Shown piece by piece: positions 7,533 to 23,850 of a stretch of 64,000 nt of DNA. The stretch is from positions 1 through 64,000 of the forward strand of contig NZ_JALPRJ010000021.1 of the NCBI RefSeq assembly GCF_030464885.1, written 5' to 3'. The notes under the pieces were generated by a model. The model was not told the origin of the DNA and ran no database searches. It worked only from the letters and a program-made list of their open reading frames with translations. Each line of letters opens with the position of its first letter. The stretch's first letter is position 1. The translations under genes and the position numbers were made by a program. Origin of the DNA: Caballeronia sp. SEWSISQ10-4 2 (GTDB lineage Bacteria; Pseudomonadota; Gammaproteobacteria; Burkholderiales; Burkholderiaceae).

Positions 7533-8390
7533 ATGAGCGATATGCGCCTCAACAGCATCATTCGCGCTTTCGAATCCAATAAGCCCGCATTCACTGCATT
7601 CGCAAAGCTGGATAAGCAGACCGCCATCGAGATGAGCGATGCACCGTATGACGGCATCGTTTTCGAGATGGAGCACAACCCCTACGACGTATCGGCATTG
7701 GGCGATGCGTTGCAGTACATGCTTAACCGAAAGCAGATTGCCGAATCCGGCTCGGTTGCGCCGCGCGTCACACCGATTGCCCGTATTCCCGCGAACGGCG
7801 TCGAAATGAACCAGGCCTTCGCGAAGCAAGTGCTCGATCGCGGCGCCTATGGCGTGGTATGGCCGCATGTAGCGACGGTCGAGCAGGCCTATAACGCCGT
7901 GGCATCGTGCCGCTATGCCCGGCCCAAGAACGCACCGCCGTATGAGCCCAAGGGCGTACGTGGTGACGGCCCCGCAACCGCTGCTCGCTACTGGGGCTTG
8001 AGTATGGCCGATTACTACAAAAAAGCGGATGTCTGGCCGCTGGCGCCGCAGGGGGAAGTTCTGGTCGGGCTGATGTGCGAGAGCACCGAGGCGATTGAAA
8101 ACCTCGACGACATCCTGTCGAACGTGCTCGGCATTGGCTTCATTCTTATCGGCGAAGGCGATCTTAGCCAGCAACTTGGGTATCCGCGCGAGTATGAGCA
8201 CCCGGCCGTGCTCGATGCCATGCGCCAGATTGTCGAGACTTGCCACAAGCACAAAGTGGTGGTCGGCAATCCGCATGTCACTGCGAAGAATCATCAGCGG
8301 CTGCTTGAAGAGGGATACCGCTTCCTGATGTCGGCGCCGCAGCGCAGCTATGGCGTTGTAGGCACGGCGCGCGAGATGGCGGGGTATTGA
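7533..8390 (+). CDS. HpcH/HpaI-family aldolase
   Basis: A 285-residue class II (metal-dependent) pyruvate aldolase family protein. PIARIPANG provides the conserved catalytic arginine. CESTEAIEN and IGEGDLSQQLG supply the Glu and Asp metal ligands, and FEMEHNPYD replaces the usual LDxEH motif. In this operon the obvious job is retro-aldol cleavage of 4-carboxy-4-hydroxy-2-oxoadipate, the LigJ product, to pyruvate and oxaloacetate. In the classical pathway a LigK/ProA-type aldolase does this, so the protein would be a functional analogue. GAGAAAGG precedes the ATG. The stop codon is followed immediately by the ATG of the ThDP enzyme, implying translational coupling. Confidence 0.86.
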   Translation: MSDMRLNSIIRAFESNKPAFTAFAKLDKQTAIEMSDAPYDGIVFEMEHNPYDVSALGDALQYMLNRKQIAESGSVAPRVTPIARIPANGVEMNQAFAKQVLDRGAYGVVWPHVATVEQAYNAVASCRYARPKNAPPYEPKGVRGDGPATAARYWGLSMADYYKKADVWPLAPQGEVLVGLMCESTEAIENLDDILSNVLGIGFILIGEGDLSQQLGYPREYEHPAVLDAMRQIVETCHKHKVVVGNPHVTAKNHQRLLEEGYRFLMSAPQRSYGVVGTAREMAGY

Positions 8391-11363: not shown

Positions 11364-12314
11364 CTAAGCCACCGGCTCGACACCACTCCCGTGAGCGTTT
11401 GTTCTTTGGAATGTTTCGACGATCAGCGCTTGCATCAGGTCAGCCGTGCGAATCACGCCAAGGCTTTCTCGCGTGACGCAGAATACGGGTCGCTCAGACA
11501 TCCACTCGGGCACCGGCAGCCGATACAACTTACCTCGCTCTACCCAAGGCTCGGCAATGTGATCGGGCACAATGCCAACGAACTGGCCACAAAGTAGTAG
11601 TTGCAGCGTTCCCTCAACATGATGCGACAACGTTCGTGCTCTTTCCGATAACGATAAAGGCACCGTTTCGTTCACAAGATAGCCTCTGCGCACATAGGAC
11701 GCGCTCTCTTCGACCAATTGCTTGGCGCGGTGTTCGTCCGCACCGAAAGCAGCGTGACCGCGTCCGCAATACATCGAAGCGCTCTCGGAGGTCACAACCT
11801 GATAGTTGAGCGATGGCAGGTTCGACTTGCATATCGTGATGCCCAGCGCAGCTTTTTTTTCCGCTACCGCGCGCTCCACCAGGTCAGGTGATGCCACGTT
11901 GAGATTCAGGGTTACCTGCGGATAGCGATCGCAAAATTCACCGATCGCCATGGAAACCGGGTTTGCTGGCGTGAAGGCGCTGTGGTCAATGAGCCAGATG
12001 GACAGTTCGCCGCGAATCTCGTTCTTCGCTGTTCCCAGCACCTCACGAAATTCGTCGATGGCGTCCAGTAGGCGCAGCGTAGCAGCGTAGGCGACCTGAC
12101 CCTCCGCGGTAAGTTGAAAACCGCTGCGCCCACGCACACAAAGCTGGCAACCTACCCGTGTCTCGAGATCGGAAAGCTGCTTGCTGATTGCCGAGGTGCC
12201 AAGACCGGTGGCCTCTTCCGCAGCTGAAAGCCCACCGCACTCCACAACGGCCTTGAAGAGCCGCAAGTGCTTGATGTCAATATCGTGAAGTGGCGGGATC
12301 GGTAAAGTCATCAA
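11364..12314 (-). CDS. LysR-family transcriptional regulator
   Basis: A 316-residue LysR regulator. The N-terminal winged helix-turn-helix covers about residues 14-73 (HLRLFKAVVECGGLSAAEEA, then ISKQLSDLETRVG), and the effector-binding domain follows to the end. It is transcribed leftward and lies downstream of the carbamoylase and hydantoinase genes on the same strand, so it may regulate this nitrogen-compound cluster. An ATG one codon after the annotated start is equally possible. A 342-bp internal piece of this gene (11774-12115) is duplicated at 50484-50825, showing past rearrangement. Confidence 0.9.
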   Translation of the reverse strand: MMTLPIPPLHDIDIKHLRLFKAVVECGGLSAAEEATGLGTSAISKQLSDLETRVGCQLCVRGRSGFQLTAEGQVAYAATLRLLDAIDEFREVLGTAKNEIRGELSIWLIDHSAFTPANPVSMAIGEFCDRYPQVTLNLNVASPDLVERAVAEKKAALGITICKSNLPSLNYQVVTSESASMYCGRGHAAFGADEHRAKQLVEESASYVRRGYLVNETVPLSLSERARTLSHHVEGTLQLLLCGQFVGIVPDHIAEPWVERGKLYRLPVPEWMSERPVFCVTRESLGVIRTADLMQALIVETFQRTNAHGSGVEPVA

Positions 12315-12391: not shown

Positions 12392-13663
12392 TTATTTTGC
12401 GCCGAGGACGCGATCTAACAGGAGCAACGTCTCTGCCAGCACGCGAGTGCCGTCGAGTAACTGATTCGGGTCGAGCCATTCTTCGGGACAATGGCTACGC
12501 CCGTCTAGGCACGGCATGAAAATCATGCCCATGGGCCCGACGTTCTTCATGTAAACCGCGTCGTGGCCAGCGCCACTTGGCATTCTAACGCTTGCATAAC
12601 CCAGATGGTCGGCCGCCTGCTCAACACACTCGATCACCACGTCCGAGCAGTCCGTTGGATTGCCCGAGGTCAGGTCGACGAATGTTGCATCAAGCCTGAG
12701 CGCATGCAAATGGGCTTGAGTTTCGCGCATGAGATTCTCGGGGAAATTCTGGAGCACTTCGTTCGTGTCACTACGCACTTCCAACACCATATCGACTCGC
12801 CCCGGTACCGCGTTCGGCACGTTCGGCTCTACGGCGATGCGGCCTACGGTCGCCACCACATAGTTGAGGCGGCCACTTAGCGTGCTCGCCATCCTGTGAG
12901 TCGTTTCGATAAGACGGGCGGCGCCCACGAGTGCATCGCGGCGAAGATCCATGGGGGTCGTGCCAGCGTGATCTGGCTGCCCGATAACAGAGATCGCCAC
13001 GCGCCGAATCCCGACAATATTGGTGACTACGCCGATCGGCAGATTACGGCTTTCCAGCACAGGACCCTGTTCTATATGCAACTCGACAAAGGCGGCGACG
13101 CTGTCCGAGCCTCGCAGGGCCGTGCCGAGATCGTCAGGCCGTGCGCCGATGCGCAGCATCGCTTCGCGCAAGGTTTCGCCTTCATGATTGCGCGCGCACA
13201 GCATGTCGCTGCCCAGTTTGCCGCATAGCGCGCGACTGCCGACGCAGGACACGCCGTAGTCGCTAGGCTCTTCGGAAAGAAAGTCGATGACTTCCAGCGA
13301 ATGGCGCAGCGATATCTTCGCGTCCTTGAGCGCATGAGCGACTTCGAGGGCTGCCAGCACGCCAATGATTCCGTCGAAGCGGCCACCTGCAACCACGGTG
13401 TCGCAATGAGAACCGCTGACCAGCGGCGCGAGTGCCGGCTCGCTTCCCGCGTGCCGGCCGATCAGGTTGCCGCCGGCGTCAAGTTCGACAGTCAGGCCCG
13501 CGGCAATGAATTCGCTCTGGAGCCAATCTCGAGCGCGCAGGAATTCCCCGCTGAACGCGCGGCGAGTCCAGGGAACGTCTGTCCGAACAAAGCCGGCAAG
13601 CTTTTCCACACGTGCCCAGAGGCGATCGAGATCAAGTGGCAGAAGGCTGGATGTGGTTGTCAT
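12392..13663 (-). CDS. M20-family amidase/N-carbamoyl-amino-acid hydrolase, candidate N-carbamoyl-L-glutamate hydrolase
   Basis: A 423-residue zinc hydrolase of the hydantoinase/carbamoylase (Zn-dependent amidase) family. Metal-site motifs are SGSHCDTVVAGGRFDGIIG (about residues 82-100), FLSEEPSDYG with the catalytic and bridging acids, ELHIEQGPVLE and a late SGAGHDAVYM. Such enzymes remove the carbamoyl group from N-carbamoyl amino acids or act on allantoate and ureidoglycolate analogues. The start overlaps the stop of the hydantoinase-like gene by ATGA at 13660-13663, so the two are translationally coupled. Beside lyase, urocanase and amidohydrolase genes, N-carbamoyl-L-glutamate is the attractive substrate; this is inference. 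Confidence 0.85.
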   Translation of the reverse strand: MTTTSSLLPLDLDRLWARVEKLAGFVRTDVPWTRRAFSGEFLRARDWLQSEFIAAGLTVELDAGGNLIGRHAGSEPALAPLVSGSHCDTVVAGGRFDGIIGVLAALEVAHALKDAKISLRHSLEVIDFLSEEPSDYGVSCVGSRALCGKLGSDMLCARNHEGETLREAMLRIGARPDDLGTALRGSDSVAAFVELHIEQGPVLESRNLPIGVVTNIVGIRRVAISVIGQPDHAGTTPMDLRRDALVGAARLIETTHRMASTLSGRLNYVVATVGRIAVEPNVPNAVPGRVDMVLEVRSDTNEVLQNFPENLMRETQAHLHALRLDATFVDLTSGNPTDCSDVVIECVEQAADHLGYASVRMPSGAGHDAVYMKNVGPMGMIFMPCLDGRSHCPEEWLDPNQLLDGTRVLAETLLLLDRVLGAK

Positions 13664-15027
13664 TGGTTTTTAGTCGTGAGGGTGGGGCGTACGAAGCGCC
13701 CATCGCCAGATGAACCACAAATTTGACCTCTGTTATAGACGAGTCGTCCCCGACAGAACGTCGAAACCACTTCTACGTTAAATTGCATGCCCTCGAACGC
13801 GCTCCATTGCACAGCTGACAGGCTGCGCGAAGGATCGTATGCGTGCACGCGCGGATCGAGAATGACAAGGTCTGCATCGTGGCCGGCTTCAAAACCGCCT
13901 TTTTGTTTGTCGATCAGGAAGTGGTGGGCTGGACCATCGCACAGCAGGCGCGCAACCATGCGCAAGTCGATGCCGTGCTGCTCACAGCCCGTCCAAAGCG
14001 CTGGAAGTAGCGTTTCCAGACCCGGGCCACCCGACGCATTCAAGAATACGTTGGGATTTTGCTTGCGCTCAAGTCCCCAACTAACGTGATCAGATGAAAC
14101 GAAGGTGCAGTCGCCGTTCGCGACGTGACGCCAGAGGAGTTCTGTCTCTGCACGCGGCCGGATTGGGGGATAGTGCTTGGCACGCGCACCGAATCTGCGC
14201 GTATGGTCCTCGTGGTTCAGCATCAGGTACTGGACACAGGTTTCGATGCTAGACGCGTGTCCCGCGCCTCGATAGAGGTTGCCCAACTCAAAACCGCGCG
14301 CCGTCGAGACGTGCACGGCGTGTGCGCGCGCGCCGGTTTCGGCGCCGATCTCGTAGATCAGCGCGGTCGCAAGATTTTCGATCAGCGGTGTATGCGCTCG
14401 CAGGAAAGCATCCCAGCCGGTGTCACCGGCTTGCGTCAAGCGCCGCACGTTTTTGCGGGTCAACTCCTGCATTTGATTGTGCACGCCGCACGCAAGACCC
14501 GACGGACCGATCATGCGGAATGCCTCGAAGAGCACATCTTCCTCGACACGGGGGAACCGGCCCGGACTCGCCTCGAAGGTCGAAAACTTGAACGCGCACA
14601 CACCGCCGTCTATGAGACCCGCAGCCGCCGCAAGCCCGTGCTTTTCGTTAAGCGTGCCGAATAGTGCGACGTCCACTACGCAATCCCGCTCCACTTCAGC
14701 GATCTTGGCGTCAAGTTGGGAGCGGGTGGCCACGGGCTCGGGGTCGTCGTAAGGCATGTCGACCATCACTGTGATACCCCCGGCAGCCGCGGCATTTGAT
14801 GCTCGGCCCAGACCCTCCTGATTCGCCTGGCTACCCGCGTGGACTTGCCCATCGATCACGCCGGGCATGACCCATTGCCCATGCGCATCCAGCGTGTCGC
14901 GGCCAGCTGGCGGGGTGCCTGTGCCACGCATGACAAACCGGCCGTCGCGTACGGCAAGCCAGCCGTCTTCAACAATTTCGCGAGCATCGACCAACCGCCC
15001 GCGCACTATAAGGTCGAAATCGCCCAT
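13660..15027 (-). CDS. Hydantoinase/allantoinase-like cyclic amidohydrolase
   Basis: A 455-residue member of the dihydroorotase/allantoinase/hydantoinase family. It contains GVIDGQVHAG where the family normally has the HxH metal pair, AFKFS for the carboxylated lysine, CGVHNQMQE and HAVHVSTARG for the later histidines, and FVSSDHVSW for the aspartate. The first histidine of HxH is replaced by glutamine, which is unusual. The family opens cyclic ureides. With the coupled carbamoylase it would convert a 5-substituted hydantoin to an N-carbamoyl amino acid and then to the amino acid. The ATG at 15027 has AAAGGA at suitable spacing; a GTG lies one codon upstream. Confidence 0.83.
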   Translation of the reverse strand: MGDFDLIVRGRLVDAREIVEDGWLAVRDGRFVMRGTGTPPAGRDTLDAHGQWVMPGVIDGQVHAGSQANQEGLGRASNAAAAGGITVMVDMPYDDPEPVATRSQLDAKIAEVERDCVVDVALFGTLNEKHGLAAAAGLIDGGVCAFKFSTFEASPGRFPRVEEDVLFEAFRMIGPSGLACGVHNQMQELTRKNVRRLTQAGDTGWDAFLRAHTPLIENLATALIYEIGAETGARAHAVHVSTARGFELGNLYRGAGHASSIETCVQYLMLNHEDHTRRFGARAKHYPPIRPRAETELLWRHVANGDCTFVSSDHVSWGLERKQNPNVFLNASGGPGLETLLPALWTGCEQHGIDLRMVARLLCDGPAHHFLIDKQKGGFEAGHDADLVILDPRVHAYDPSRSLSAVQWSAFEGMQFNVEVVSTFCRGRLVYNRGQICGSSGDGRFVRPTLTTKNQ

Positions 15028-15215
15028 CACTTAGTCCTTTGTCTTTACTGACGATGGACGAAGTGTCCCCCGCAAAAATGTCAACAACCATGATGGAACG
15101 AACAAGTTCACTTTCCGTTTATCGCATGGTTTCTCGAGGCCACTAGCCGAATAATTCGCTGAACTGCTCCTTGTGCAGCAGAAATCGACTGCCATTTAAC
15201 GAGAGACCTTTCGCA
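15028..15215. promoter_or_regulatory. Divergent promoter region of the urocanase and hydantoinase units
   Basis: A 188-bp gap between divergent transcription units. An 11-bp perfect inverted repeat, CGAATAATTCG, lies at 15148-15158, and a second imperfect dyad (CTGCTCC...GCAGCAG) lies just to its right. These are plausible operator sites for a shared regulator such as the LysR protein at 11364. No -10/-35 pair is clear enough to call. Confidence 0.4.
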
Positions 15216-16910
<1,695 letters not shown>

Positions 16911-16920
16911 GAGGTCGGCC

Positions 16921-18465
16921 ATGGGACAACTGCACCTCATAGAACAAGTCCTGGTGGCGGGAATGCCAGGTTGCCCGCCGCAAACCATGGATGTATTGAT
17001 CGACACGGACCGCTTCGTCGCTATTGCGCCAAAAATCGATCTAAGCACGGTACGCATAGATGAGCGCACCAACGGCCACCGGCTGTTGATGGTTCCCGGT
17101 CTGATTAACGCGCATCACCACTCTCACGACCGGTTTGACAAGGGCCGCTTCTCTGGTTTGCCGCTCGAGATTTGGATGAGCTTGTACAACCCGCCCACGC
17201 ATTCGCGCGGATGGACGGCGCGGGAGGTATACCTGCGAACCTTGTTAAACGGTACCGAGATGCTTCGGAACGGTATTACGACGGTCGTCGATGACATTCA
17301 TTTCGGCGGTTGCACCGATCCTGAAGTGGTGTCTGCGGCGTTCCAGGCTTACACCGATCTCGGCATGCGTGCGGACGTGAGCGTTGCATGGGGCGATCGC
17401 GCATTTCGTGACTCAGTTCCCTATCTCGACCGGCACCTACCCGCCAATGCAGGATCGACATGCCCCGTGCGGACTGGCGACTGGACGCTCGCGTTCTGGG
17501 AGGAGCTTGCGCAGGAATGGAAGGGCCGGGTGCGCTTTGTTTTTTCACCTTCCGCTCCTCAGCGGTGCTCGACGGCATTTATCGAGAGGACTTGCGAACT
17601 CGCAAGAAAACATGACCGTCCAGTGCTGTTGCACGTGCTTGAGACGCGGATACAGGCGCTCACCGCAATAAAGAACTACGGCATGCCGATGGTGGAATAC
17701 TTGAATTGCCATGGTCTGCTTGATCACCATTGCGTGCTGGCGCATGGTGTCTGGCTGAGCGAAAGCGAACTCGACTTGATCGCCGGCGCTGGTGCGAGCG
17801 TCATCCATAATCCTGCCTGCAACCTGAAGCTTGCAAGCGGTATTGCACCTATCGGCGAGATGCTGCGCCGAGGTATTGCGGTCGGGCTCGGAACGGACAA
17901 CAACAATGGCAATGACCTGAATTCGATGCTCGATGCAATGCGTCTTGCCGCGTTGGTCAGCGGCACGGGGGACGCAAGCCTGGAGGCCGGCATTGACGCG
18001 TCACAGGCATTCTCAATGGCAACCGCTGGCGGCGCACGTTCAATCGGGCAGACGACAATCGGCAGCATCCGCGTCGGAATGCAGGCCGACTTCGTTCTGC
18101 TGGATCTATCGAGCAATGCTTTCCTGCCGCTCAATGATCCACTCACACAACTCGTGTTCTGCGAGCAGGGGCAGTCTATTCGCGAGGTCTACGTTGCCGG
18201 CCAAAAGCTGGTGGACAATGGGCGGATCACGCGTGTTGACGAAAGCGCCATGCTCGCCGAACTGGACGAGCACATGCCCTTCGTGCAACAGCGCATCCAG
18301 GAGGGCGAAGCAGCGGCGGCTCACCTGAGGCCATTTCTCGAGGCGGCTTATATGGACTGCCTTGCTGACCCGTTGATGCAACCATGGCTAAGTCGCCATC
18401 GGGCGCTGTTGGACCCGGCCCCGCTCATTCAAAAACATACCCCCTTCAACTGGATAAGCATATGA
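16921..18465 (+). CDS. ATZ/TRZ-type amidohydrolase, candidate thiohydantoin-propionate desulfhydrase or deaminase
   Basis: A 514-residue metal-dependent amidohydrolase of the cytosine/guanine/S-adenosylhomocysteine deaminase group. Metal motifs are LINAHHHSHDRF (about residue 62), LLHVLETR, CVLAHGVWLSE and GLGTDNNNGNDLN. It is longer than HutI (about 405) or HutF (about 455) and lacks their usual signatures, so it is not an obvious member of the normal Hut route. Its start is 10 bp after the urocanase stop, and its stop overlaps the lyase start by ATGA. In ergothioneine breakdown an amidohydrolase-type desulfhydrase follows the hydratase, which fits this position. That function is inferred. 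Confidence 0.82.
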   Translation: MGQLHLIEQVLVAGMPGCPPQTMDVLIDTDRFVAIAPKIDLSTVRIDERTNGHRLLMVPGLINAHHHSHDRFDKGRFSGLPLEIWMSLYNPPTHSRGWTAREVYLRTLLNGTEMLRNGITTVVDDIHFGGCTDPEVVSAAFQAYTDLGMRADVSVAWGDRAFRDSVPYLDRHLPANAGSTCPVRTGDWTLAFWEELAQEWKGRVRFVFSPSAPQRCSTAFIERTCELARKHDRPVLLHVLETRIQALTAIKNYGMPMVEYLNCHGLLDHHCVLAHGVWLSESELDLIAGAGASVIHNPACNLKLASGIAPIGEMLRRGIAVGLGTDNNNGNDLNSMLDAMRLAALVSGTGDASLEAGIDASQAFSMATAGGARSIGQTTIGSIRVGMQADFVLLDLSSNAFLPLNDPLTQLVFCEQGQSIREVYVAGQKLVDNGRITRVDESAMLAELDEHMPFVQQRIQEGEAAAAHLRPFLEAAYMDCLADPLMQPWLSRHRALLDPAPLIQKHTPFNWISI

Positions 18466-19988
18466 ACTCGATCGTCGAAATTTCCCCCGGCCACACGCAG
18501 CTTGGCATCTGGCGCGCCGTGCTCGCAGGCGATGCAGCACGGCTACATCAAAGTGCGCACGGGGGTGTTGAAAGCGCGGCTGCAATGGTTGAGCAACTGG
18601 TGCGGGCCGGCAAACCGGTCTATGGCCTCAACACTGGTTTTGGTAAGCTCGCGCACGTGCGCATTAGCGATGCGGATCTGTCCAAGCTCCAGCAGAACCT
18701 CGTCATGTCGCACATGACCGGCTACGGGCCAGCCCTCGACGCGAACGTAGTACGGCTTGCGATGGCGCTGAAAATCGCAAGCCTTGGCCGCGGTGCTTCG
18801 GGTGCGAAGTTGCGCACCGTCCATTTGCTTGAACAAATGCTCGAGCGCGGCGTGGTGCCGGTGATTCCCGCGCAAGGCTCGGTCGGCGCGTCGGGCGATC
18901 TCGCACCGCTTGCGCATATGAGCGCTGTGCTCACCGGTGGTGGCGAGGCCGTGTACCAAGGCGAAGCGCTCTCCGGGGCACAGGCGCTGGCGCGTGCGGG
19001 CCTCGCACCCATATCGCTCGCGCCAAAAGAGGGGCTTGCGCTGATGAATGGAACTCAAGTGTCCACTGCGCTAGCCCTGTGCGGACTGTTTGCATTGGAA
19101 AAGTCGTTCACGGCGGCAATGGTCATTGGGTGCCTTGCAACAGAGGCGATTGCCGGTTTGGCGAGTCCGTTTGACCCGCGCATCCAGGCGCTGCGTGGCC
19201 AACCTGGACAGATCGAGGTGGGGCGGACGATGAAAGCGCTCCTCGACAATAGCCCGATGCGGGCTATTAGCGAAGCATCCGGTAAAGTGCAGGATCCCTA
19301 TAGTATTCGTTGCCAACCACAAGTGCTCGGTGCATGTCTCGACCTGATCCGCAACGCCAGCGCGACACTCGAGATAGAGAGCAATGCGGCTTCGGACAAC
19401 CCACTCATCTTTACTGACACGGGCGAAGTAATCTCTGGAGGCAACTTTCATGCTGAGCCGGTCGCGTTTGCTGCAGACATGCTCGCCATTGCCATCACTG
19501 AAATAGGTAACCTGTCCGAGCGGCGCTGCAACCTCTTGCTGGACCCATCGTTCTCGGGTCTACCAGCAATGCTCACGCCCGACGCGGGCCTGAATTCTGG
19601 CTACATGACCGCGCATATATCTGCAGCAGCGATGGCATCGGAAAATAAGCAGCGTGCGCACCCGGCGTCCATTGACACCATTCCGACCGCGGGCAACCAA
19701 GAGGATCATGTCTCGATGGCGACTCACGGCGCGCGTCGCCTGCTGGAAATGAACGACACGCTGCGAGGAATACTTTCAATTGAAGCATTGTGCGCGGCAC
19801 AGGCGCTAGACCTGCGTGGCGGCGATTGCTGTTCGCCGCTCTTGAAGAGCGCCTTCGACGCCATTCGTACGCGAGTGCCCTTCATGCCCGAAGACCGTCC
19901 GATTGCTCCAGACATGGCGAGCATCGCCGAGTCGATCCGCAGCGGCGCGCTTGTTCAACAAACGGGACTCGCATCATTTTTCAATTGA
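18462..19988 (+). CDS. hutH: Histidine ammonia-lyase family enzyme, candidate ergothionase
   Basis: A 508-residue MIO-dependent ammonia lyase. GSVGASGDLAPLAHMS (about residue 145) contains the Ala-Ser-Gly that cyclises into the MIO cofactor. YGLNTGFGKLA supplies the catalytic tyrosine region, and QDPYSIRCQPQVLG and ASENKQRAHPAS with NQEDHVSM supply the other active-site loops. It removes ammonia from L-histidine or, in relatives, trimethylamine from ergothioneine. The ATG at 18462 overlaps the preceding stop (ATGA). The urocanase, a non-Hut amidohydrolase, hydantoinase and carbamoylase neighbours, together with the lack of HutI/F/G, favour the thio-histidine substrate. The family assignment is firm; the substrate is not. 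Confidence 0.9.
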   Translation: MNSIVEISPGHTQLGIWRAVLAGDAARLHQSAHGGVESAAAMVEQLVRAGKPVYGLNTGFGKLAHVRISDADLSKLQQNLVMSHMTGYGPALDANVVRLAMALKIASLGRGASGAKLRTVHLLEQMLERGVVPVIPAQGSVGASGDLAPLAHMSAVLTGGGEAVYQGEALSGAQALARAGLAPISLAPKEGLALMNGTQVSTALALCGLFALEKSFTAAMVIGCLATEAIAGLASPFDPRIQALRGQPGQIEVGRTMKALLDNSPMRAISEASGKVQDPYSIRCQPQVLGACLDLIRNASATLEIESNAASDNPLIFTDTGEVISGGNFHAEPVAFAADMLAIAITEIGNLSERRCNLLLDPSFSGLPAMLTPDAGLNSGYMTAHISAAAMASENKQRAHPASIDTIPTAGNQEDHVSMATHGARRLLEMNDTLRGILSIEALCAAQALDLRGGDCCSPLLKSAFDAIRTRVPFMPEDRPIAPDMASIAESIRSGALVQQTGLASFFN

Positions 19989-19992
19989 TCTG

Positions 19993-20007
19993 ACCGGCCT
20001 TCGGGCC
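19993..20007 (+). terminator. Short GC hairpin after the lyase gene
   Basis: CGGCC and GGCCG flank a TTCG tetraloop shortly after the lyase stop. This is a stable 5-bp stem of the kind found in attenuators and terminators. No U-run follows, so it may only reduce readthrough into the transporter genes. Confidence 0.3.
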
Positions 20008-20238
20008 GTCGCCAATGGCCACACAGCGTTCATACCGACGGACCGCGGTGTGAACACTTGCGCTCGTTTTAACAATGCGCTCGGAGTGCTCACGTTGCCC
20101 GCACCATCAGGCAAGTAAAGTTTCCATATCGTGGCTTGATCCCCTCTTTTTGACGCTCAAATAATTCTCCCAACCGCTCTCTGAATGCCAGTTTATAGGC
20201 AGATGGCGGTAATAAACCTTAACAACTAAAGGAAGATC

Positions 20239-21021
20239 ATGAAGAGATTTTTTGTGGCGGCGATGACCCTGCTCGTCCTTTATTCAAGCGTGAGTATGGC
20301 AAGCGATGCTGCCGTGATTCGTTTCGGTGTGGACGCCAGCTATCCGCCACTCGAATTCAAGGATCCCGAAGGTAAGCCGACCGGTTTCGATATCGATCTA
20401 GGTTCCGAAATCTGCCGGCGGCTGAACGCGCGTTGCGAGTTTGTTGACATGAGCTTCGATGGATTGATTCCGGCACTGCTGAGCCGGAAATTTGACGGCG
20501 TGCTTTCGTCCTTGTCAGTGACCGAGCAACGGAAGAAGGAGATCACATTTAGCGACAAGCTATTCAGTTTGCCGTCGCGACTCGTCGCGCGCCGCTCAAG
20601 CGGGATCACGCCTACCGAGCAAGGACTCAAGGGTAAAACGGTTGGGGTTGAGCAGGGCACGATCCAGGAAACGTTTGCACGCACTTACTGGCAGCCCGCA
20701 GGCGCACACATCCAGGCCTATCAATCGCAGGATCAGGTTTACGCCGATCTGACGGCTGGGCGTCTTGATGCTTCGTTTCAGGATGAGGTCCAGGCCAATG
20801 CGGCCTTTCTTACGACCCCCCAAGGCAAAGACTTCGCTTTTGCGGGCCCCGTGCTTAGAGATACTAAGGTCCTTGGCGATGGCGCAACGGCTGTGGGACT
20901 TCGAAAAGACGACGTCGAGTTACGTGACAAGATTAACCGCGCTTTGCACGATATGCACGCCGACGGAACCTTCCAGCGGATCGAGAAAAAGTACTTCTAT
21001 TTTGACGTCTACAGCGACTAA
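20239..21021 (+). CDS. HisJ/ArgT-type periplasmic substrate-binding protein
   Basis: A 260-residue solute-binding protein with an N-terminal signal peptide (basic start, hydrophobic core to about residue 22, cleavage probably near SMAS). The mature part opens IRFGVDASYPPLEFKD and contains the arginine in SLSVTEQRKKEITFSD and the aspartate in GRLDASFQDE that bind amino-acid carboxyl and amino groups in HisJ. The C-terminus KKYFYFDVYSD is also HisJ-like. It should deliver a basic or imidazole amino acid, plausibly histidine or ergothioneine, to the permeases that follow. AAAGGAAG precedes the ATG. The lyase ends 250 bp upstream, so it may have its own promoter. Confidence 0.92.
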   Translation: MKRFFVAAMTLLVLYSSVSMASDAAVIRFGVDASYPPLEFKDPEGKPTGFDIDLGSEICRRLNARCEFVDMSFDGLIPALLSRKFDGVLSSLSVTEQRKKEITFSDKLFSLPSRLVARRSSGITPTEQGLKGKTVGVEQGTIQETFARTYWQPAGAHIQAYQSQDQVYADLTAGRLDASFQDEVQANAAFLTTPQGKDFAFAGPVLRDTKVLGDGATAVGLRKDDVELRDKINRALHDMHADGTFQRIEKKYFYFDVYSD

Positions 21022-21095
21022 GGGCGTCGTTCCGCGCTCAACGTAGCGCGGCTTATAGGTCCGGTCCGAAGTATTCCGTTTTTGAGGGGTTCATC

Positions 21096-21785
21096 ATGTC
21101 CTGGCAAGCCTATCTTCCACTTATCGCGCGAGGTGCGTGGACGTCTGTGCAACTATCGTTGTGGGCGCTCTTTATCGCATTCCTGCTGGGGCTGGCCACT
21201 GCAGGAGCGAAACTGAGCGGGCGCCCGGCTGCGATCTTTGTGGCCAGACTTTACACAACGCTTATTCGGGGCGTGCCCGATCTCGTGCTCATGCTGCTCC
21301 TGTTCTATGGCATCCAACGCGGCCTGAACTGGCTAACCGATCTCTGCGGTGTCGAGTTGATCCAGATCAATCCGTTCGCCGCAGGTGTTATGACGCTGGG
21401 CTTCATCTACGGTGCGTATTTTGCAGAGACGTTCCGAGGTGCATTTACTTCGGTGGATTGCGGGCAACGTGAAGCGGCCACTAGTTTCGGCATGACCCCT
21501 TCTCAGAGCTTCAGATTGGTCACCTTCCCGCTAATGATGCGCTTCGCGCTCCCCGGGATAAGCAACAACTGGCAGGTCCTCGTCAAGTCGACTGCGCTCG
21601 TCTCCATTATTGGCCTAAGCGATGTTGTGAAGGCTGCGGTGGATGCCGGCAAGGGCACTTATCACGTCCTGTTGTTTATGCTGCTCGCAGCCGGCCTGTA
21701 TCTCTTCTGGGCATCGTTGTCGGGCATCTTGCTCCGACAGCTTAGCCGACGCTATTCCTTAGGAATCAGGGTGGCCGGACTATGA
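21096..21785 (+). CDS. HisQ-type ABC permease
   Basis: A 229-residue inner-membrane permease of the polar amino-acid uptake (HAAT) family with about five hydrophobic segments. LIRGVPDLVLMLLLFYG is the typical early loop. YFAETFRGAFTSVDCGQREAATSFGMT is the EAA motif that docks the ATPase (about residues 110-135). It pairs with the next gene, whose ATG overlaps this stop (ATGA). GAGGGG lies upstream of its own ATG. It would form the HisQ half of a heterodimeric channel. Confidence 0.92.
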   Translation: MSWQAYLPLIARGAWTSVQLSLWALFIAFLLGLATAGAKLSGRPAAIFVARLYTTLIRGVPDLVLMLLLFYGIQRGLNWLTDLCGVELIQINPFAAGVMTLGFIYGAYFAETFRGAFTSVDCGQREAATSFGMTPSQSFRLVTFPLMMRFALPGISNNWQVLVKSTALVSIIGLSDVVKAAVDAGKGTYHVLLFMLLAAGLYLFWASLSGILLRQLSRRYSLGIRVAGL

Positions 21786-22537
21786 TCGAAATAGCCCAAC
21801 AATACTGGCGCGCGTTCCTCTGGACAGATGGGCAAGGCTATAGCGGCGTCGCAGTAACCTTCTTTCTTTTGTTGGTCTCGACAGTGGGAGGGTTTCTTCT
21901 GGCGATTCCGCTTGCCATCGTCCGTGCGTCTCCTAACCGATACTTGAATGCGCCAGTCTGGTTGTACACGTATGTGTTTCGAGGCACGCCTCTGTATGTC
22001 CAGTTGCTGATCATTTACACGGGCGTTTATAGCCTCGATTTTGTGCAGCAACACGAGTTGACGAATAGCTTTTTTCGCAGCAGCTATAACTGCACGATTC
22101 TCGCGTTCATCCTTAACGAATGCGCCTATGTCACGGAGATTCTCGCTGGGGCAATCAGGGCGACGCCAGCCGGAGAAGTGGAGGCGGCTCGTGCTTTCGG
22201 AATGTCGCCACGCACACTTTACACCCGGCTGATTATGCCTTCTGCATTCCGCCGCGCTCTACCCACTTTGAGCAACGAAGTTATCTTCATGCTTCATGGA
22301 ACCACGGTCGCTTTTACCGCTACGGTCCCCGATATCTTAAAAGTGGCGCGCGACGCGAACGCCGCAACTTATGGGTCGTTTCAGGTCTTTACCCTGGCGG
22401 CACTCATATATTTGGCGATCTCCTTGGTGCTCATCGCCGGGTTTAGGCGTGCCGAAATTCGTTGGCTCGACCATCTGGGTCCGCGACAAGCGAAAGCCGG
22501 CGTCGCGTTGCTCCCAACCCTTCCAAACAAGGCTTGA
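21782..22537 (+). CDS. HisM-type ABC permease
   Basis: A 251-residue partner permease with five to six hydrophobic segments. It has the [21 protein letters not shown] region and an EAA loop at [28 protein letters not shown]. Its start overlaps the HisQ-type gene by ATGA, and the ATPase gene begins 4 bp after its stop, so the four transporter genes form one unit. HisQ/HisM-type heterodimers carry arginine, lysine, ornithine or histidine; the ligand here must be inferred from the binding protein and the adjacent lyase. Confidence 0.92.
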
Positions 22538-22541
22538 CATC

Positions 22542-23309
22542 ATGCATACCCTGGACGTTACCGACATCCACAAAAGCTACGGCAACAACGAAGTCCTCAA
22601 AGGCATTTCGATCACGGCGAACGCAGGCGACGTGGTGAGCATCATTGGATCGAGTGGCTCTGGCAAGAGCACGTTTCTGCGATGCATCAACTTCCTGGAA
22701 ACACCCGACCAGGGTCGTGTACAACTAGGGGATCTCGACATTTCCATGCAAGGGGAAAACGGTACGAGGGCCACGCTGCCAGAACGCAAAACGCTGCGAG
22801 CGCTTCGGACCCGGCTTGCGATGGTGTTCCAGCATTTCAACCTGTGGTCGTACCTCAACATCGTCGAAAATCTTTGTGTGGCGCCTATGCATGTGCTCGG
22901 CATCACGCGCTCGGAAGCGGAGACTAAAGCGCGGCACTATCTCGCGAAAGTGGGCCTTGATTCGAAAGTTCATAAAAGCTATCCGGCGCATCTGTCTGGT
23001 GGCCAACAGCAGCGCGTAGCAATTGCCCGGGCACTGGCGATGGAGCCGGACGCCTTGCTTTTCGACGAACCGACTTCGGCGCTTGATCCTGAGCTGGTTG
23101 GCGAAGTGCTGCGGATTATGCAGAAGCTCGCCGAAGAGGGCAGAACAATGATCGTGGTAACTCACGAGATGGGTTTCGCCCGACACGCATCGACTCACGG
23201 TATCTTTCTCCACAATGGCAGGATAGGAGAAGAGGGTAAGCCGGACGATATTTTTGGCCACCCGAGCAGCGAGCGGCTCAAGCAGTTCCTGTCATCCAAC
23301 GTAAAGTAG
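22542..23309 (+). CDS. HisP-type ABC transporter ATPase
   Basis: A 255-residue nucleotide-binding subunit. Walker [19 protein letters not shown] lies near residue 38, the Q-loop follows in [11 protein letters not shown], the signature is [15 protein letters not shown], and Walker [15 protein letters not shown] is followed by the switch histidine in [11 protein letters not shown]. Length and spacing match HisP. I chose the ATG at 22542 because it begins the normal HisP N-terminus ([14 protein letters not shown]); an in-frame start at 22371 would lie inside the HisM-type gene. Confidence 0.94.
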
Positions 23310-23454: not shown

Positions 23455-23850
23455 ATGACCAAAAGTATCAAATTGCAATTGATGGGCGGAATGTACTGCA
23501 TCTCGCGTCTTAGCGGCGGTGCCCCCATCCCCCCTTGGGCAGATGGAGAAGGTTTCGTCTCGATCTCACGTAACGGTGATGAACTTTCGATCGTTTGCAA
23601 ACAAGAGCGCGTGCCGCCCGGTACTAAAGTTGATCTCGGATGGGTCTGCCTTAAATTTGTCGGACCTTTTGCGTTCGGCGAGACGGGGATCGTGCTGTCC
23701 GTAATCCAGCCCCTGTCTGAGAATGGCCTCGGCATCTTTGTTGTTTCCACCTTCGATGCAGACTGCATGTTGCTCAAGCGCGCTGACTTAGAACCGGCCA
23801 CAAGGCTCCTTAAGGCGGCGGGGCATACGATTATCGATGAACCGTCATAG
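23455..23850 (+). CDS. ACT-domain protein of the CASTOR/ACT_7 type
   Basis: A 131-residue small cytoplasmic protein. Its opening IKLQLMGGMYCISRL, then PPWADGEGFVSISRNGDELSIVC and GPFAFGETGIVLSVIQPLSENGLGIFVVSTFDAD, resembles the tandem ACT-like domains of bacterial homologues of the arginine sensor CASTOR. Such domains bind amino acids; the biochemical role of the bacterial ones is mostly unknown. I start it at 23455 because AGAGAAG precedes that ATG and the upstream in-frame extension is not conserved-looking. It follows the importer genes by about 145 bp and may sense the imported amino acid. Confidence 0.8.
   Translation: MTKSIKLQLMGGMYCISRLSGGAPIPPWADGEGFVSISRNGDELSIVCKQERVPPGTKVDLGWVCLKFVGPFAFGETGIVLSVIQPLSENGLGIFVVSTFDADCMLLKRADLEPATRLLKAAGHTIIDEPS

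Follow-up and report, generated by a model that had tools for sequence, protein, structure and literature searches.

Background

To our knowledge, the pathways that place a lyase and an enzyme of the urocanase family in series are those for the catabolism of histidine and of ergothioneine, the latter including an S-methyl branch. Lyase chemistry that relies on 4-methylideneimidazol-5-one (MIO) needs an amine able to bond to the MIO, which a trimethylammonium group cannot do. We analysed a 64,000-nucleotide stretch of the Caballeronia sp. SEWSISQ10-4 2 genome (contig NZ_JALPRJ010000021.1, positions 1 to 64,000; hereafter the window), in which a gene cluster encodes a histidine ammonia-lyase homologue (HAL), a urocanase (UroB), an amidohydrolase (AmiC), a hydantoinase and a carbamoylase together with a HisJQMP-type importer. 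This gene set is probably a further lyase/urocanase combination, a variant of the known pathways that serves a modified histidine and probably not ergothioneine. The reading that we favour, with somewhat more confidence than doubt, is that the unit is dedicated to the catabolism of a putative C2-substituted L-histidine with a free alpha-amine, via hydantoin-5-propionate to glutamate.

Every gene listed in an initial annotation of the window was recovered at its given position, and the families agreed. The genes form a two-armed unit around a putative divergent promoter, the minus arm carrying a LysR gene, the M20 carbamoylase and the hydantoinase, and the plus arm the urocanase, the amidohydrolase, the lyase, HisJQMP and an ACT-domain protein. 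The enzymes and the importer are given below, with scores against the curated pathway models of NCBIfam release 20.0.

12392..13663, minus strand: ErtE-type N-carbamoyl-L-glutamate amidohydrolase (M20); NCBIfam NF058540, 616 bits against a cut-off of 520
13660..15030, minus strand: ErtD-type hydantoin-5-propionate amidohydrolase; NCBIfam NF058538, 667 bits against a cut-off of 600
15216..16910, plus strand: UroB, hydratase of the urocanase family in a clade of its own (100/100); Pfam Urocanase; hutU model passed, 571 against a cut-off of 375
16921..18465, plus strand: AmiC, amidohydrolase with a proposed role in hydrolysis of the imidazolone C2 substituent; PF01979, invariant metal-site residues, fold matches
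18459..19988, plus strand (likely start 18462, as in relatives): HAL, MIO-type histidine ammonia-lyase homologue; hutH TIGR01225, 613 against a cut-off of 539, ASG motif, tree
20239..21021, plus strand: HisJ/LAO-type periplasmic binding protein; best PDB matches HisJ 2m8c/1hpb; NCBIfam HisJ 292, below the cut-off of 459
21096..21785, plus strand: HisQ-type permease; nearest NCBIfam model HisQ, 267, below the cut-off of 319; place conserved
21782..22537, plus strand: HisM-type permease; NCBIfam NF011651, 379 against a cut-off of 306
22542..23309, plus strand: HisP-type ATPase; nearest NCBIfam model HisP, 399, below the cut-off of 466; place conserved

Comparison with ergothioneine clusters

The initial annotation had matched the five families step for step to the ergothioneine route, such that ergothioneine would be taken up and mineralised with release of trimethylamine and sulfide, HAL serving as the ergothionase, UroB as the thiourocanate hydratase and AmiC as an amidohydrolase-type desulfhydrase. 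As a control, 398 Burkholderiaceae genomes were scanned for thiourocanate hydratase with three candidates scored per genome; the cut-off was passed by 23 of them, the window's genome not being among these. Six canonical loci (L064-L069) were taken from genomes that passed. The L064 cluster exceeded the models for step 2 (1055 against 930), step 3 (611 against 440) and step 4 (698 against 600), and no ergothionase model was among its NCBIfam results. A homologue of ergothionase (ErtA) was found in five of the six loci, with none in the fetched stretch of L067.

The proposed match held for the last two steps. The hydantoinase and carbamoylase of the window are 74-76% and 65-67% identical, respectively, to ErtD and ErtE of the six canonical loci, and the order of lyase, hydratase, C2 hydrolysis, hydantoinase and carbamoylase is the same five-step logic as in the ergothioneine cluster (ErtA-ErtE; NF058529, NF058530, NF058538, NF058540). 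Since no other parts match as closely as ErtD and ErtE, the route should run through hydantoin-5-propionate, with ring C2 ending as a carbonyl. Both likenesses speak for ergothioneine as the substrate, yet ErtD and ErtE homologues alone are insufficient to call a cluster an ergothioneine degrader.

For steps 1-3 and for transport the match broke down. Step 3 of all six canonical loci is an S-Me-THD (DUF917) desulfurase, named by its model in L064 and found in each of the remaining five at 77-99% identity, whereas the window encodes an amidohydrolase; likewise, a major facilitator superfamily (MFS) carrier is present in all six, in contrast to the HisJQMP importer of the window. Neither canonical protein had a match in any of the 11 loci of the window's type. 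The thiohydantoin desulfurase model NF058529 gave at best 38 bits in the window's whole genome, against a cut-off of 440, and was exceeded in none of the seven other carrier genomes (best 105 bits), a search that left out the chromosomes of both plasmid hosts. The desulfurase of the canonical loci is not the amidohydrolase-type enzyme that the initial annotation had assumed for step 3.

The lyase keeps the MIO motif

HAL retains the Ala-Ser-Gly tripeptide of the MIO, GSVGASGDLAPLAH, in alignment, and the residues that we take to form the HutH active site, with their roles and numbering likewise assumed, are all kept. It is 51% identical to HutH of its own genome against 27.7-29.2% to ErtA homologues. 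The tripeptide is lost in three aligned ErtA homologues (GS-I/L-GEADITILSH), in agreement with PMC13405746, where ergothionase is described as an enzyme without MIO. A tree of 31 lyases placed the cluster enzymes in one group (100/100) within the HutH-type group (99/100) and well away from the ErtA sequences. The HutH group of this tree has 13 rows and fewer distinct genes, rows L092-L096 being second copies of neighbouring HutH genes and not the 38-40% paralogues intended; HutH formed one group in only 23% of bootstrap trees, and L020, with its truncated lyase reading frame, was omitted.

With its MIO kept and its place beside HutH, HAL does not resemble the ergothionase that it had been taken for, and this MIO-type lyase sets the window apart from the canonical clusters with their MIO-less ergothionase. 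The route via hydantoin-5-propionate, combined with the amine requirement of MIO chemistry, therefore points to a histidine that is substituted at C2 and has its alpha-amine free.

The urocanase forms a separate clade

UroB fell below the models for thiourocanate hydratase (NF058530, 553 against 930; control ErtB, 1055) and for S-methyl thiourocanate hydratase (572 against 880). Its gene contains an unusual stretch of 73 bases, made up of 55 G, one C and 17 G.

16491..16563, no strand: poly-G run within the urocanase gene, probable artefact; absent from the relatives compared

The longest G run of the three closest relatives is at most 3 in the stretch compared, and where the run stands, each of the eight genome-contig orthologues aligned has coding sequence for some 24 conserved residues; it is therefore probably a sequencing or assembly artefact. 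The "divergence" of the urocanase is in part owed to this run, and our conclusions on the UroB protein accordingly rest on intact relatives. Two intact orthologues likewise stayed below the thiourocanate hydratase cut-off (596 and 602), so that the run was not the cause of the failure, and they also scored below the S-methyl model (618 and 624).

A tree built from 30 urocanases resolved UroB (11 sequences), ErtB (10) and HutU (8) as one group each (100/100), while a single near-S-methyl sequence was set off by its long branch. Identity between intact UroB proteins and ErtB or HutU members is 43-48%, and segments that are similar across the HutU and ErtB sequences aligned differ in UroB, one example being TDQTSSHD or TDQTAAHD, which reads TEMCPCHD in UroB. 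Judged from the aligned residues, such differences would fit an altered substrate, without naming it. The S-methyl thiourocanate/S-methyl thiohydantoin branch (NF058531, NF058532) resembles the unit in that it, too, has a variant enzyme of the urocanase family, but UroB does not reach its model and the S-Me-THD protein is not in the loci.

UroB thus lies outside thiourocanate hydratase, contrary to its first assignment. The UroB orthologue of L072, at 45-47% identity to ErtB against 43-45% to HutU, leans slightly towards ergothioneine; the HutH-like lyase with its MIO, the failed hydratase model, the want of an S-Me-THD desulfurase over cut-off in genome or loci, and a cationic-amino-acid importer, with its presumed alpha-amino clamp kept, where the six canonical loci have an MFS carrier all lean the other way. 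As the first three enzymes differ from those of ergothioneine breakdown, ergothioneine is probably not the food of this unit, and we regard its uptake and mineralisation here as very unlikely.

The amidohydrolase and the C2 substituent

Residues H65, H67, H238, E241, H275 and D326 of AmiC are invariant in all 16 sequences, and its closest folds are a homologue of MTA/adenosine deaminase, AtzA, the isocytosine deaminase Vcz and TrzN. AmiC thus combines the HxH, H, E, H, D zinc site with the fold of the heteroaryl deaminases/chlorohydrolases. It shares fold and zinc-site residues with the amidohydrolase-superfamily members Vcz, MTA/SAH deaminase, AtzA, TrzN and guanine deaminase, but its identity in structural alignments is about 19-29%, and it passed none of the best 25 NCBIfam models listed (top score 237 against a cut-off of 540).

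Because AmiC has a heteroaryl deaminase fold, an amino group is the likeliest C2 substituent, giving 2-aminohistidine; thiol or methylthio is nearly as likely, sulfur at C2 being possible since the ending is common with ergothioneine clusters. As a sub-case of the C2-substituted histidine reading, the substrate could be 2-thiohistidine or S-methyl-2-thiohistidine, with AmiC as an AtzA/TrzN-like hydrolytic desulfurase in place of S-Me-THD. TrzN acts on C-S bonds also, and the AmiC fold is as close to TrzN and AtzA as to the deaminases; UroB, however, scores under both sulfur-substrate cut-offs, and we know of no source of free 2-thiohistidine. This sub-case is possible but doubtful. We advance just as tentatively the specific proposal that L-2-aminohistidine, so far unrecognised as a nutrient in nature, is used through a horizontally spread pathway, in which the MIO lyase would produce 2-aminourocanate, UroB would be a fourth kind of urocanase, AmiC would be a 2-amino-imidazolone-propionate deaminase, and ErtD and ErtE would follow.

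The importer is of the HisJ/LAO class, and the residues that we take to be its alpha-amino-acid clamp are kept in all ten aligned HisJ sequences.

Recurrence of the unit and the separate hut genes

The same arrangement occurs at 10 other loci, one without several genes (L023) and one with a truncated lyase (L020); because of this recurrence the cluster is not a chance assembly. A genome-contig scan gave 10 loci, comprising eight orthologous clusters and two weak matches. Seven of the eight are in Pseudomonas (P. salomonii has two) and one is in Burkholderia sp. L27; two further clusters stand on plasmids typed conjugative, in Paraburkholderia graminis (amidohydrolase 96%) and Burkholderia ambifaria (71%). 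Setting aside the poly-G run of the window, the five enzymes are complete in 9 of the 11 loci; the lyase frame of the P. kitaguniensis locus is truncated. The unit is rare: an orthologue was found in none of 57 other genomes of the window's genus, three of which have homologues of 34-42%, in 2 of 398 genomes of the family sample (its own and L27, the latter identified by its contig) and in 3 of 398 of the Pseudomonas sample.

A unit of this composition might also degrade plain histidine, or 2-oxohistidine from oxidative damage, via hydantoin-5-propionate, with AmiC acting elsewhere or upstream. HAL and UroB do reach the HutH and HutU models, and a HutH-type lyase, a urocanase-family enzyme and a HisJQMP-type importer are shared with hut operons. 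The window, in contrast, lacks HutI, HutF and HutG, has a hydantoin end-route, and sits in a genome with separate hut genes. This genome (9.44 Mb, 212 contigs) holds HutU, HutI, HutF and HutG, each passing its curated model, on contig C135, preceded by a lyase homologue and by ABC genes resembling HisJQMP, and has two further MIO-type HutH genes, 51% identical to HAL. The absence of HutI, HutF and HutG that had been noted is hence true of the 64 kb window, where tblastn with the genome's own proteins gave no match at E<1e-3, and does not extend to the genome.

In the five Pseudomonas carriers searched with both proteins, HutH (51-52%) and HutU (44-45%) are retained elsewhere, and the cluster copies therefore look specialised. 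In the L27 genome HutU is present and a second lyase was not found at the threshold used. The divergence of UroB and the retention of AmiC in all 11 loci, though unneeded for 2-oxohistidine, also argue against degradation of histidine or 2-oxohistidine, which we consider unlikely. That the cluster is no histidine operon but a dedicated modified-histidine unit, as first suggested, is thereby supported.

Two observations were made on the hut genes themselves. The lyase homologue of C135 (L008 9402-10982, about 70.4-72.0 kb) is missing the MIO tripeptide (GSVGY---LSHMAH) and scored 454 against 539 on the HutH model; one possibility is that it releases trimethylamine from hercynine and so supplies HutU with urocanate, another that it is inactive. 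Contig C110 (L006 5893-9261) carries HutH and a HutC-like regulator near a transposase-like gene, the latter two named by eye, apart from the genes of C135.

Proposed route

Within the C2-substituted histidine reading, HisJQMP would import the substrate, and the MIO lyase would remove ammonia to give a C2-substituted urocanate. UroB would hydrate this to a C2-substituted imidazolone-propionate, from which AmiC may hydrolytically swap the C2 substituent for oxygen, yielding hydantoin-5-propionate. ErtD would then open the hydantoin and ErtE would remove the carbamoyl group to leave L-glutamate. Family membership gives good support to the last two steps and to a first step of the MIO type, acting on a free amine; what the substrate is and which reaction AmiC catalyses we infer.

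Several points weigh against this reading. ErtB is marginally nearer to UroB than HutU is. AmiC matches AtzA and TrzN, enzymes that attack C-Cl bonds, no less well than it matches the deaminases, and four of five AmiC models were poor (mean predicted local distance difference test score, pLDDT, 58.8-64.4). The side-chain position of HisJ is Q in the Pseudomonas loci and E in the window and the two plasmids, and an argument from a cationic substrate is therefore weak. In Burkholderia sp. L27 the cluster is without hydD, HisJQMP and most of carbE, and the unit is therefore not always complete; in two Pseudomonas genomes a HutU match has one in-frame TAA. No assay of any enzyme of the unit was found in the literature, we know of no natural 2-aminohistidine, and that compound was not found in the open-access literature.

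The open-access literature likewise gave no report of this gene set (most subscription journals were outside the search), no bacterial pathway in any title among the matches listed for hydantoin-5-propionate, no title on the subject among those listed for ergothioneine with Ert names or thiohydantoin, and no on-topic match for S-methyl ergothioneine catabolism. If correctly read, this rare, partly plasmid-borne combination in Pseudomonas and Burkholderiales implies that a C2-modified, free-amine histidine is common enough somewhere to select a pathway. The cluster lyase and urocanase should not be named HutH and HutU, as is done in the plasmid annotation.

Flanking and regulatory features

The unit is wider than 12392-23309, as the LysR and ACT-domain genes on either side are conserved with the cluster.

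11364..12314, minus strand: LysR-family regulator; Pfam LysR; orthologue at the corresponding position in Burkholderia sp. L27 (93%) and in 7 Pseudomonas loci (63-66%)
15031..15215, no strand: putative divergent promoter region, its function suggested by the divergent arrangement only
23455..23850, plus strand: ACT-domain protein; present in 10 of 10 related loci at 57-83% identity

The ACT gene is labelled 'ACT domain-containing protein' in NZ_CP024936.1 and NZ_CP152372.1, and a search of its product against NCBIfam at E 1e-8 gave no match. All seven Pseudomonas loci have an M20D deacylase-like gene (16257-17513 in L022) inserted between the genes for HisP and the ACT protein; no such gene was found in the window, in L27 or at either plasmid locus. 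Its presence suggests possible use of an N-acylated form as well. At the L27 locus, a carbamoylase remnant is visible as a 74-residue match adjoining the urocanase (L023 about 7900-8300). Across the seven divergent promoter regions aligned (from 7 of the 11 loci) an AATAATT block is invariant, and this block, within 15031-15215 of the window, is a possible candidate for a regulator site.

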